From the NCBI GenBank assembly GCA_002256345.1, contig NKIY01000005.1, positions 252,485 through 316,484 on the forward strand: DNA of 64,000 nucleotides, read 5' to 3'. Under the pieces are notes generated by a model. The model was not told the DNA's origin. It searched no databases and was given only the letters and a program-made list of their open reading frames with translations. Both the position numbers and the translations under genes were made by a program. Shown here piece by piece: positions 38,860 through 44,288 of this stretch (within the stretch, counting starts at the first letter, position 1; every line of letters starts with the position of its first letter). This DNA comes from Bradyrhizobiaceae bacterium PARB1. Its GTDB lineage: Bacteria > Pseudomonadota > Alphaproteobacteria > Rhizobiales > Xanthobacteraceae.

Positions 38860-39561
38860 ATGGCGCATCCCCTCAATCCTCTCTTCAACAACAGGCCGTA
38901 CGTCCGCGACTCCTCGTCGGAGCCTGTGCTGCGGCTGCGGATCCAGCCCGATGTGGACGACGGACCGCCGCCCGTTCCCGGCCGTCCCAAAGGCTGCAAG
39001 CGGCTGCACACCAATGCCACGGTGGCCGCGACGCGCCGACTGATCGAGGAGACGACGCTGAGCTACAAGCAGATCGCGGCGCGGACCGGCGCGACCGCCG
39101 GCACCGTCGGCCGCTGGGCCCGCGAATTCGGCTGGCAGCGCCATCCCTTCGCGCCCCGTGCCTGCGACACGGTGCCGACCGCCCGCGCCGGCCGCCGGCT
39201 GAAGCTGCGCATGCTGGGCGTGAAGCTGCAGGAGGTGGCCGAGCGCTGCGTCAACGAGCTGTGGGCCAGCCCCACGGTGGACTACGACCGGCTGATCAAG
39301 GCCATGGAGGCATTCAAGGTGGCGCGCCTGATGGCCATGGGCAGCCGCCGCCCGCGCCGCCATCCCGAGCCCAAGGCGCACAGCGCCCAGGACTGGCTCG
39401 ACCGCAACGCCGCCATCGCGAAGGCGCTGAAGGACCTGCGCTGGGGCGGCGTCAATATCGAGCACATCCCCGAGGAAGCGATGGCCCTGCTGGAAGAGGC
39501 GCACACGCCGCCGGAGGATCATCCGGCTTTGAGGCCGAGGGGGAAAAGAAGAAGAAAGTAG
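38860..39561 (+). CDS. Hypothetical HTH-domain protein
   Basis: TLSYKQIAARTGATAGTVGRWAREFGWQRH resembles HTH of terminase small subunit/resolvase-like proteins; basic C-terminus RPRGKRRRK. Confidence 0.6.
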   Translation: MAHPLNPLFNNRPYVRDSSSEPVLRLRIQPDVDDGPPPVPGRPKGCKRLHTNATVAATRRLIEETTLSYKQIAARTGATAGTVGRWAREFGWQRHPFAPRACDTVPTARAGRRLKLRMLGVKLQEVAERCVNELWASPTVDYDRLIKAMEAFKVARLMAMGSRRPRRHPEPKAHSAQDWLDRNAAIAKALKDLRWGGVNIEHIPEEAMALLEEAHTPPEDHPALRPRGKRRRK

Positions 39562-39638
39562 GGCTTAAAGATCGCCATAACACTTGCTTCGAAGACGAAG
39601 ACAACGAGCGAGAACCGGTTCAGCTAGTCAAGTAGCCT

Positions 39639-40298
39639 TTACGCCACACAGCTTCCCACGGGCAGAAAAGCGTGGTTCAGCTCGATGCTCGTAAAATTCG
39701 TCCGCGGATGCTGACTTAGCCAAAACGCCTGACCGTTAAGACTCAGCTGCTCTGGTGTTCTTTTACTCTTCTTCAGAAAGGCGTTTATCTGTTCGACAAT
39801 AACGTTTGGTGCGCCAGCCAACACATATCCTGTCATAAATCCTCGGCTATGAGCAGCACCATATTTTCTTGAACAGAAGCGATCCATCCCTTCCTTCACG
39901 TACTCGCGAATAAGATTAGCGTCTCCCGCTGCGACCCTCTTACATTCGATAATCGCGTGAGGATCGTGCTGCCCAAGCTTCAGGAATATCTCGATGAACA
40001 GTATCGGAATATCGGTTCTTCCGTCAGGAACCGGAAACTCCGTAGATCTAGATTCTGTTCCTGGCAAAACGACCATTGACCTTCGCCAAGGAAGTTTCCG
40101 CGCTTTAAGCGCCTCTCTCATCCCATCGCGCAGGCGTTCTGTAATTACAATCTCTTTTGCATCCGAAGCCAAATCGTGATGTTTTCTAGCTATTTCCCAT
40201 CCAAATTCGACTGTCTGTAGAATGGCGGCCGCAATATCCGGCGCAAGATCGATAAGTGCCTCTCCTATTACTGCGGGCTTCTCAAACGGGATGCTCAC
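39639..40298 (-). CDS. PD-(D/E)XK nuclease-like protein, second gene of DNA-methyltransferase cassette
   Basis: ITERLRDGM...GRTDIPILFIEIFLKLGQHDPHAIIECKRV (E...D...ECK); ATGA overlap with upstream methyltransferase gene. Confidence 0.6.
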   Translation of the reverse strand: MSIPFEKPAVIGEALIDLAPDIAAAILQTVEFGWEIARKHHDLASDAKEIVITERLRDGMREALKARKLPWRRSMVVLPGTESRSTEFPVPDGRTDIPILFIEIFLKLGQHDPHAIIECKRVAAGDANLIREYVKEGMDRFCSRKYGAAHSRGFMTGYVLAGAPNVIVEQINAFLKKSKRTPEQLSLNGQAFWLSQHPRTNFTSIELNHAFLPVGSCVA

Positions 40299-43261
40299 CT
40301 CGAAGCTCCCGAGAAACTTTCTGCCACAATCGCGTCGGCATCTTCTAGCGCCGCGCTCCTCATCCAGAATCTTCGTGCCGCAGGTTTGATGAGAACAACC
40401 TCTGACCGAGAGTGAATCCGCAGCTCCCGCTCGCCGATTAATGAAGCCGCGAGGGGCACACGCAAACGATCACCGATAGCTTTGATTGTGCTACCGAGAC
40501 TTCCCTCAGGCTTTATAATGTCAACGCGAGATTTTCGAGCAGCATCCAAAAGGATGAAGCGGATAATGCGAAGGGGCGACTGCTGCGGCAGATCATAAAT
40601 TTCTGCCTTCATGCTGCGCTTATTGGAAACGCTGAACCACGGCTGGATACCAGCCAAAAAAGCGTCAGCATATGCGCGCAGATCACCGTCAACACTCGCC
40701 GGTTCTGCAGCTCTTTGACGACCTTCATCCCATTGCCATTCAGCCCGGAGAAAACCGTCTTGCACCACTAATCGATCAATCGCATCCAGATCGTAGATAT
40801 CGCAAACTAATCTATCTAGGTTAGACCAATCATCTGGGGTCACATCTTTTCGCTTTAGCTTTCGCTCTAAAGCGAGGAGCTCCTTTCCAGCCGGAGACGC
40901 AAGAGTCCTATCAAGGCGCGGAATAGGCAGAAGACCAACATCGTTGGTCAAAAGCCTTCTCTTCCACAGACCAAATTCAGATGCTGTCATCAAAAAAAAC
41001 CAAGTCGCAAACGAGGAACTAAGAATCATTGAGAGCAGACGGCCGCTCTCCTGATTTTTCACTCCCAACGCAGCGCCAAAGTACGCATCCGTATAGACAA
41101 GGTCGCGCGTAGACAAAGCTGTCATCGGCCGAGGACTTGCTTTTAGAAACTCCTTCACAAGCAGCAATGGCGCGCGATACGTTTCTCTGGATCGCGGCCA
41201 CTGAGCCTCGCCTTCTTCGAAGCTCTCAAGATTTGATGGCAGCTTAAAGTAATCAAGTGATTTGGTCGTCAGTATTTCAAGACCACGCAGATGGGACGCG
41301 GCCCGCGTCCGGCTTTCTGGCTTACCTAAGATCAGACCATCGCGCCAAACGGAGCCGATCGATTCCAACCATTTATTCAAGGACGAATACTCGGCTTTCA
41401 TTTCGTCGAGCAGAGCTATATCGCGAGATCGCCCGAATGCGACTGACTTAAGACGCTCTGGATCTTTCGCCCATTCATCAAGAGATAGTGTCGACACGTC
41501 GCTAGGGGATATCTCAAACGTTTGAGACCGCTCTCCTGCAGGAGACCAAGGAACGTTTACAACAGTTAGCTGCCCTTCACGCTGCTTTCTACAGTTAGCT
41601 AAAAGTATAACGGCTGGCATTTTTGCCGTTGGGAAAAGCCAACGAATAAGCGGCGCAAGATTTACGATTGTCGCAGGAGACAGCCGTTCAACGACGTTTC
41701 TAGCTGCCGCCGCTCCAGTCTTACTGCCGGAAAAGAAAGGCATAGCACTTAGCACAATACCATAGCGCGTCTTATCGTGCGCAAAGTCCATCGCGCGCAT
41801 CACGAAGTCGAGCCCTTCGCCGCGAGGCTGGAGGGGCACTGCTTTCGAAGCATGAGAATGTCGTTCGGCAGTTCCCCGCTTACCCTTAAAAGTCCACGGG
41901 GGATTACCCACGACCAAGTCGAATTGGCGCCTAGTGCCTTCGACTAGTAGGGCCGCCCCGGCAGGAGTTGTTTCTACGTCCCGAGCATTTCCAACGAACA
42001 AAGTCCGCCCTATCAGCTCTTGAAATTTGAGAGATTCTGGCGGCTGCGGCTCGGGATCGAGCTCAAGCGCCGCGAGATAAAGACTAAAAGCGGCAACGCG
42101 TACAGCAGCCTCGCTGATATCAACTCCGAATATCTGCTCGTACAACGTTGCTCTAATGACGGCTCGGGTCGGCTTTCCCTTACTTCGTATCAATACGAGC
42201 CGCCGAAACGACTCCACGAGAAAAATACCGGACCCGCACGTTAAGTCTAAGATAGTCTCTTTGCCACTTACGCCATCCAAAACTTCATCGAGCACAAGCG
42301 AGACAACGGGCAAACGTGTGTAATGCACACCAAGCTTCTTGGCGCTACCTTCTGAAGTGCCATCGGCGTCTTCATCAGACTTTGAATGAGCGAATTGCTC
42401 ATAAATCGAACTTATAAGCTCGACGGGAATAATATCAAACCGATACGGAAACAACGAATGTTGTCCCGTTTCAGGATCCACCGCCTCGAGAAAATCAGCC
42501 ACTCTCGCGAAATGTTTCTGGCGTAGTTGAGCCATCGGCATTGACGCAGGAAACATATCGCCATTGAAAGAATCGCGCAGCCACGAAAACAACGACTGCG
42601 CGGACGCCGAAACGCGCAATGCATCAGGCAGAGTTTCTTTACCGCAGTGTTGGACTAGCTTCTTAGTATCAACGATACCACGATCGACTAGGTACTGCGT
42701 AAAAATGGCACGCCCAATTAAACCTTGAGCGGCTCCCCGATCCACTCCCTCAGCGACCAAATCTCTTTCGAGAGCAGAAAGTTCGAGCAAGAGCTGCTGA
42801 TCGACTGTCGATTTACGATTGATAGTCTCGTTGTGCAGCCAAAATTGCCCGCTCTCCATAGCAAATCGGCCCGCCAGTTGATCGAGTTCAACGAGCTGAT
42901 TATCGATTGCTTGAAAGGTATGTAGGCGATGAAGATCGGCATCTCCCTCTGCTTGCGGACGGCCGAAACCGTTGTAAAGATCAATTCTATTTGGGCTCAC
43001 AACCCAAAGAAGCGGCGCAAAGCCCTCATTCCAAATTTCACGGCGCCATACACTTACCTCGTCTGCCGAAGGCGGTACTGATTTGTACTTGAAGTACACA
43101 GTTAGAGCAGACGGGCCCCGCCAAAGGGCATCTGGTGAAAAATATGAACCGCGGCGCCCGGCTCGCGCCTCTCGGGCCACTCGAACGCCGGGAGCGGGCC
43201 GCCCGTTGTTTAGGAAGCCCGTTGCCTCAAGAACTTTCCCGAGCGGGCCCGGTATTGCCAT
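40295..43261 (-). CDS. Large N6-adenine DNA methyltransferase (Eco57I/type IIG/PglX-like)
   Basis: LDLTCGSGIFLVESF (SAM motif I), FDLVVGNPPWTFKG (NPPW motif IV), C-terminal LLPIPRLD target-recognition-like region. Confidence 0.85.
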   Translation of the reverse strand: MAIPGPLGKVLEATGFLNNGRPAPGVRVAREARAGRRGSYFSPDALWRGPSALTVYFKYKSVPPSADEVSVWRREIWNEGFAPLLWVVSPNRIDLYNGFGRPQAEGDADLHRLHTFQAIDNQLVELDQLAGRFAMESGQFWLHNETINRKSTVDQQLLLELSALERDLVAEGVDRGAAQGLIGRAIFTQYLVDRGIVDTKKLVQHCGKETLPDALRVSASAQSLFSWLRDSFNGDMFPASMPMAQLRQKHFARVADFLEAVDPETGQHSLFPYRFDIIPVELISSIYEQFAHSKSDEDADGTSEGSAKKLGVHYTRLPVVSLVLDEVLDGVSGKETILDLTCGSGIFLVESFRRLVLIRSKGKPTRAVIRATLYEQIFGVDISEAAVRVAAFSLYLAALELDPEPQPPESLKFQELIGRTLFVGNARDVETTPAGAALLVEGTRRQFDLVVGNPPWTFKGKRGTAERHSHASKAVPLQPRGEGLDFVMRAMDFAHDKTRYGIVLSAMPFFSGSKTGAAAARNVVERLSPATIVNLAPLIRWLFPTAKMPAVILLANCRKQREGQLTVVNVPWSPAGERSQTFEISPSDVSTLSLDEWAKDPERLKSVAFGRSRDIALLDEMKAEYSSLNKWLESIGSVWRDGLILGKPESRTRAASHLRGLEILTTKSLDYFKLPSNLESFEEGEAQWPRSRETYRAPLLLVKEFLKASPRPMTALSTRDLVYTDAYFGAALGVKNQESGRLLSMILSSSFATWFFLMTASEFGLWKRRLLTNDVGLLPIPRLDRTLASPAGKELLALERKLKRKDVTPDDWSNLDRLVCDIYDLDAIDRLVVQDGFLRAEWQWDEGRQRAAEPASVDGDLRAYADAFLAGIQPWFSVSNKRSMKAEIYDLPQQSPLRIIRFILLDAARKSRVDIIKPEGSLGSTIKAIGDRLRVPLAASLIGERELRIHSRSEVVLIKPAARRFWMRSAALEDADAIVAESFSGASR

Positions 43262-43328
43262 TTTGTCTTTCGCATAAGCCTGGCCCGAGGGGGCCGATGA
43301 GCGGTCTTAGTTTCACGAAGCGAGTCCC

Positions 43329-43356
43329 AATATAGAACATATCGTGAACAAAACAA
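43329..43356 (-). promoter_or_regulatory. Candidate promoter with LexA-type box in the spacer
   Basis: Minus strand TTGTTT-N16-TATATT; spacer holds GTTC-ACGATAT-GTTC (GAACATATCGTGAAC on + strand, 43335-43349). Confidence 0.5.
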
Positions 43357-43385
43357 TTATCTCCGCGAACAACAGTGCCGCAATT

Positions 43386-43408
43386 ATGGTTAACATCTTA
43401 TTAACCAT
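43386..43408. promoter_or_regulatory. Candidate CtrA-type site TTAA-N7-TTAAC inside a perfect inverted repeat
   Basis: ATGGTTAA-CATCTTA-TTAACCAT; TTAACATCTTATTAAC at 43390-43405. Confidence 0.45.
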
Positions 43409-43469
43409 ATGATTTATAAGCATTAATTGAGACCAAGACTTCAGCGACAACGCGGCGAAATAAAAGGGC

Positions 43470-44288
43470 TCAGCTTCCAAACAACTTGTTCAACTCCCCG
43501 CCCTTCGCCCCATTCGCGAAGCTCGTGAATGTCCCCTGCCCGGCGATCTCCTGCGAGGCATGCATGAAGCCGGCCCAGGCCATGCGGGCCAGTGCGCCGC
43601 CGACGCTGATGCGGCGGACGCCGAGCGAGGCCAGATGCTGGACGGTCATGGTCGGCTGCACGGTGAGGACATTGAGCGGCTTGCCGCCCAGCGCCTTCAC
43701 CAGCGTGGTGATCTCCGCGTCCGAGGCAACGCCGGGCGCATAGAGGCAATCGGCGCCGGCCTCGGCAAAGGCGACCAGCCGCGCGGTGGTCTTCTTCAGG
43801 TCGCGCTCGCCATGCAGAAAGCCTTCGCAGCGCGCCACCAGCATGACGGCGGGATCGACGCCGTCGATGGCGGCGCGGGCGGCCTTGATGCGCTCCACCG
43901 CGAGCGTGTCGTCATAAAGCGGCTGGTCGGCGCGGCCGGTGGAATTCTCGATGGACAGGCCGGAGATGCCGCTCTTCGCCGCGCGGGCGACATGGGCGGC
44001 GACGCCTGCGGGGTCATCGGCAAAGCCGTTCTCGAAATCGGCATTCACGGGCAGATCGGTGGCGGCGGAGAGCAGCGCGAGATGCTCGATGACGTCGTCG
44101 GCCGTGACCTTGTTGTCGGGGCGGCCGGTGGACCAGGCATAGCCGGCGGAGGTCGAGGCCAGCGCCTTGAAGCCGAGATGGGCGAGATAACGCGCGGAGC
44201 CGACATCCCAGGGATTGGGGAGGACGAAACAGCCGGACGCGTGGAGCTTGCGGAAATTGGCGTGCTTCTCGGCGGGGGAAAGGGGCAT
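43470..44288 (-). CDS. Isocitrate lyase/PEP mutase family protein
   Basis: FRKLHASGCFVLPNPWDVGSARYLAHLGFKALASTSAGYAWSTGRPDN...LPVNADFENGFADDPAGV...GLSIEN. Confidence 0.92.
   Translation of the reverse strand: MPLSPAEKHANFRKLHASGCFVLPNPWDVGSARYLAHLGFKALASTSAGYAWSTGRPDNKVTADDVIEHLALLSAATDLPVNADFENGFADDPAGVAAHVARAAKSGISGLSIENSTGRADQPLYDDTLAVERIKAARAAIDGVDPAVMLVARCEGFLHGERDLKKTTARLVAFAEAGADCLYAPGVASDAEITTLVKALGGKPLNVLTVQPTMTVQHLASLGVRRISVGGALARMAWAGFMHASQEIAGQGTFTSFANGAKGGELNKLFGS

Follow-up and report, generated by a model that had tools for sequence, protein, structure and literature searches.

We find that a restriction-modification cassette of Bradyrhizobiaceae bacterium PARB1 very probably carries a functional LexA operator in its promoter and is, on sequence evidence, predicted to be SOS-inducible. 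The predicted operator, GTTCACGATATGTTC, lies on the minus strand at 43335..43349 of the 64,000-nt stretch of DNA analysed (the window), 88 nt from the ATG of the methyltransferase gene. The earlier note had read GAAC-N7-GAAC at 43335-43349, and the plus strand has GAACATATCGTGAAC exactly there. In Caulobacter, the alphaproteobacterial LexA/SOS operator is GTTCN7GTTC (PMC9578287, PMC12700426). The quality of the box, its conservation in Bradyrhizobium sp. DOA9 and the recurrence of such boxes in the family together mean that the predicted SOS control is well supported in silico.

The box is flanked on the minus strand by a putative -35 element, TTGTTT (43351..43356), and a putative -10 element, TATATT (43329..43334); the 16-nt spacer between them is T plus GTTCACGATATGTTC (43350-43335). 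The placement of the box in this putative -35/-10 spacer is exact, and it is repeated in two homologous cassettes (DOA9 and G313), where TTG-N16-TA also surrounds the box. In both, the -35 element is at the same position and the -10 element has equal spacing, reading TAATAT in DOA9 and TATCCT in G313. The -35/-10 pair itself, however, matches the consensus weakly (3/6 and 5/6) and was not called in a promoter scan.

The cassette and its promoter form a low-G+C islet (39560..43470, approximate ends) with about 48-55% G+C, against about 60-72% in the surroundings. Its first gene (40295..43261, minus strand) encodes a type IIG-like N6-adenine DNA methyltransferase of 988 aa, and overlaps by 4 bp with the gene for a 219-aa partner protein (39639..40298, minus strand). 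The methyltransferase has N6_Mtase/Eco57I matches in Pfam, a REase_MTase_IIG match in PADLOC (E=2.7e-53) and the motifs DLTCGSGIF and NPPW, and its structural model, of moderate confidence, has BpuSI as the best solved fold match (E=1.4e-13). Identity as BREX PglX was rejected (32.7 bits against a curated cut-off of 400, and lower elsewhere). At the N-terminus, in a low-confidence region of the model, PD44...Y56-F-K58 can be picked out by eye with the acidic residue missing, and looks like a degenerate nuclease motif. The partner protein has a PD-(D/E)XK-like signature, GRTDI...IECKR, of which D96, E118 and K120 are invariant in 11 orthologs; the same type of signature is found in the equivalent gene of distant cassettes. 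A fold search with the partner model (pLDDT 82.6) gave no significant match to a solved fold and was uninformative. The small partner may supply the nuclease for the cassette.

This arrangement resembles BpuSI-type IIG systems in its N6-methyltransferase motifs, PADLOC match and best solved fold, but differs in that the N-terminal nuclease motif looks degenerate and is followed by a separate small PD-(D/E)XK-like protein. A split type IIG system has been proposed for Haloferax HVO_A0006/HVO_A0237, in which a PD-(D/E)XK protein would partner a methyltransferase lacking that domain (PMC4389544). The likeness, drawn by description only, is in the separate PD-(D/E)XK protein proposed as partner; the Haloferax genes are apart and are seen as fragments, whereas here they form an overlapping, conserved operon.

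An alternative that we regard as very improbable is that the window motif is a chance match without function. The bare consensus does occur at background frequency: the window holds two GAACN7GAAC matches against 1.58 expected, bearing out the caution that about two should occur in 64 kb, and the 6.95-Mb genome holds 196 (about 100 of them listed individually) against 166 for the reversed pattern. The consensus by itself is thus no evidence, and the second window match (45952), which scores 3.2 bits on the matrix described below, was set aside as chance. The spacer of the box, on the other hand, resembles those of the genome's own SOS boxes. As a yardstick, reference boxes were gathered upstream of recA, lexA and imuA in genomes from the family to which the window belongs. 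The recA box, GAACATATTGCGAAC, hardly varies among them; the lexA box is GAACACATATGGAAC in most, with a second site AAACAAATCATGAAC; and the imuA box of PARB1 is GAACATATCATGAAC. The window box has one mismatch to its own genome's imuA box and two to the recA box, and differs by one base from an extra site, GAACATATCGTGTAC, in the recA promoter of five relatives.

With a scoring matrix built from these three box classes, the window box scores 24.98 bits, between the recA (24.08) and imuA (26.0) boxes of its own genome. In 8 Mb of Markov-1 sequence modelled on promoter, islet or window, no match reached 24.98 bits, so that sequence with the promoter's dinucleotide make-up did not equal the score, which again argues against chance. 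In 332 kb of control loci, matches of at least 15 bits numbered 37 in recA loci and 57 in lexA loci, with none in the 30 Y-family polymerase loci; in recA loci, every match besides the main box differs from a box by one base. A spacer-aware pattern, GAACAWANNNNGAAC, has 33 matches in the genome compared with 0 for its reversed control, some of them within a dispersed repeat and others upstream of recA, imuA, uvrA and a probable radical-SAM gene, among others (names read from translations). Copies of this repeat with LexA-box lookalikes, for example GAACAAAAATAGAAC and GAACAAAATAAGAAC, are found at several places in the PARB1 genome (G000; L021, L015, L218, L222, L228 and L004), and AT-rich lookalikes of the GAACAAAAATAGAAC kind were left out of the tally of SOS genes. 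The genome encodes a canonical LexA of 236 aa, whose gene carries its own boxes. The window box shares with the alphaproteobacterial SOS regulon the operator type, the spacer bases of its own recA and imuA boxes and the placement in a promoter, here a putative one; the difference is in the target, which is a restriction-modification cassette on a low-G+C islet and no repair gene.

Conservation of the box in DOA9 also weighs against chance. The nearest ortholog, from DOA9, is plasmid-borne and 69% identical in amino acids. Its box, GTTCATGATTTGTTC, is in the same place, 87 nt from the start codon, whilst the flanks have diverged. The other 17 close orthologs have no convincing LexA box upstream, so among close orthologs the box is restricted to the window and DOA9, and the conservation sought by the earlier note holds in the latter and fails in the rest. 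Most of these 17 have an HTH gene directly upstream, MerR-like by sub-threshold Pfam matches; in the window, unlike many relatives, the 208-bp gap that precedes the methyltransferase gene contains no regulator ORF. Two candidate sites near orthologs were discarded: the one exact match to the gamma-type CTGTN8ACAG (CTGTCCGCCAAGACAG in L054), which is 356 bp upstream and not AT-rich, and a GAACN7GAAC near L052 (GAACAGGTCTCGAAC), whose spacer is unlike those of SOS boxes.

Across the window's family, we called a box at a score of at least 15 bits within 1.5 kb upstream. LexA boxes were present in 12/26 related type IIG-like cassettes, the window included, compared with 0/30 type I hsdM genes from that family (Fisher p=1.7e-5); the idea for this comparison came from these very data, and partial relatedness among the cassettes makes the effective numbers lower than these counts. 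The reversed matrix called none (0/26). Without the matrix, and with near-copies dropped, GAACN7GAAC was found in 10/23 cassettes and 1/30 hsdM genes (p=4.7e-4), and patterns with a spacer of 6 or 8 did not distinguish cassettes from hsdM genes. Counting DOA9 and the window, there are 13 carriers; in 11 of them, 32-147 bp separate the box from the start of the methyltransferase or HTH gene that it precedes, and in the other two, G081 and G349, the box is 396 and 448 bp from the gene. Carriers occur in at least five separate lineages, with only about 24-35% identity between them, and the tree needs at least six changes of box state. Recurrence in related cassettes with clean controls is not what a chance match would give. 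It also alters the suggestion that SOS control would be unusual for a restriction-modification module: within the family it is no one-off, although 14/26 cassettes, and the close orthologs beyond DOA9, are without a convincing box. Own-box quality, DOA9 and this recurrence together support the earlier prediction that the cassette is SOS-controlled. The family-wide boxes suggest that bacteria switch such defence genes on upon DNA damage. A broader reading, which we put just short of an even chance, is the repeated recruitment of host LexA by at least five type IIG-like lineages, which would make restriction-modification a standard component of the SOS response and a damage-triggered immunity, with the window type of promoter possibly also gated by CtrA.

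The possible CtrA input comes from a palindrome, ATGGTTAA-TAAGATG-TTAACCAT (43386..43408), which fits the CtrA motif TTAA-N7-TTAA (PMC9437464) and is a candidate CtrA site. The full palindrome is present in the window and its TTAACCA half is conserved in DOA9 and G313; TTAACCA...GCAC, 43-44 nt before the box, is common to all three. In the genome, TTAAN7TTAACCAT has six matches, two of which are the window palindrome counted once in each direction; the reversed control has none. Another copy is found upstream of a probable flgB. In other carriers (G184, G310, G265 and G338), the box lies some 90 bp upstream of an HTH gene; after the box come TTGAC and an inverted repeat around GGGGTTTACCCC, which the HTH protein may use as its operator. 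An inverted repeat, GGGGTTtACCCC in L302, L303, L305 and L306 and GGGGTTAACCCC in L304, lies just 5' of the HTH gene and, beside the LexA box, is a candidate operator of the cassette's HTH protein.

We infer LexA binding, induction and benefit, the first two from established LexA biology. Sitting between the -35 and -10 elements, LexA would occlude the promoter and keep expression of the two-gene cassette low. Upon DNA damage, phage attack or the arrival of single-stranded DNA, RecA on ssDNA would trigger self-cleavage of LexA, whose loss would derepress the operon along with recA, imuA and uvrA, the methyltransferase gene being first. The likeliest benefit would be that restriction-modification is raised solely in the presence of foreign or damaged DNA, and we regard a purpose in defence as about an even call. 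A different purpose, which we hold to be rather doubtful, would be self-protection, in which a real operator and SOS induction would supply extra methylation of new or repaired host DNA and so prevent self-cutting. It is known that the host genome suffers damage and SOS is induced when restriction-modification is unbalanced (PMC3874152), and a methyltransferase gene that comes first and overlaps its partner would suit such a role; yet expression of the probable nuclease would be expected to increase as well, since its gene shares the operon, and no sequence feature favours self-protection over defence.

Defence is also preferred to a role in mobility, in which the LexA site would serve a mobile cassette that is silent in a settled host and turned on for establishment by the SOS signal of ssDNA transfer; we judge this unlikely. 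The islet is low in G+C, the distribution is patchy and there are known cases of mobile elements making use of host LexA (PMC9437464). Relatives are plasmid-borne in DOA9 and in Bradyrhizobium guangxiense, where plasmid p53363 (L262) has a related methyltransferase remnant of about 27% length and 54.5% identity; further peanut strains of Bradyrhizobium have such remnants on plasmids too. Plasmid records held ten methyltransferase homologs, partial or distant and all of <60% identity, and phage records held no methyltransferase homolog. A second, distant cassette in the PARB1 genome (L264, G000:C12:153000-162936) comprises an HTH gene, a methyltransferase 37% identical to that of the window and a PD-(D/E)XK-like protein; it has no LexA box, and a probable tyrosine integrase gene adjoins it. 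Beside the window copy, however, no integrase or transposase was recognised, and a role in establishment would look the same in sequence as one in defence.

Restriction-modification is usually regarded as constitutive or under its own small regulators. Defence-type operons under a repressor include those with WYL-type BrxR or control proteins (PMC9122601, PMC3874152), but for the window cassette the global LexA of the host is the predicted repressor and there is no adjacent regulator gene. The closest precedents for LexA are two. In the gut SOS meta-regulon, a LexA site is predicted for a type I hsdS (PMC3998124), likewise a restriction-modification gene; those sites are of Gram-positive type and in silico only, whereas the boxes here are alphaproteobacterial and the cassettes type IIG-like. 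In symE/symR, the symE toxin is repressed by LexA and its family is found near restriction-modification operons (PMC1891008), so that LexA again controls a gene of restriction-modification islands, although its target there is the toxin and the predicted target here is the methyltransferase/nuclease operon. In the open-licence literature we found no LexA-controlled type IIG cassette described, and provisionally consider such a cassette new. A repeated LexA link, if true, would tie restriction-modification to DNA damage and phage attack and would go some way to explaining why bacteria can tolerate type IIG-like cassettes that are costly or self-damaging; it is directly testable in Bradyrhizobium-type strains. 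Among the related loci, Gabija genes follow cassettes of two different methyltransferase lineages (L052 and L304), with gajA present in both and gajB confirmed in L052.
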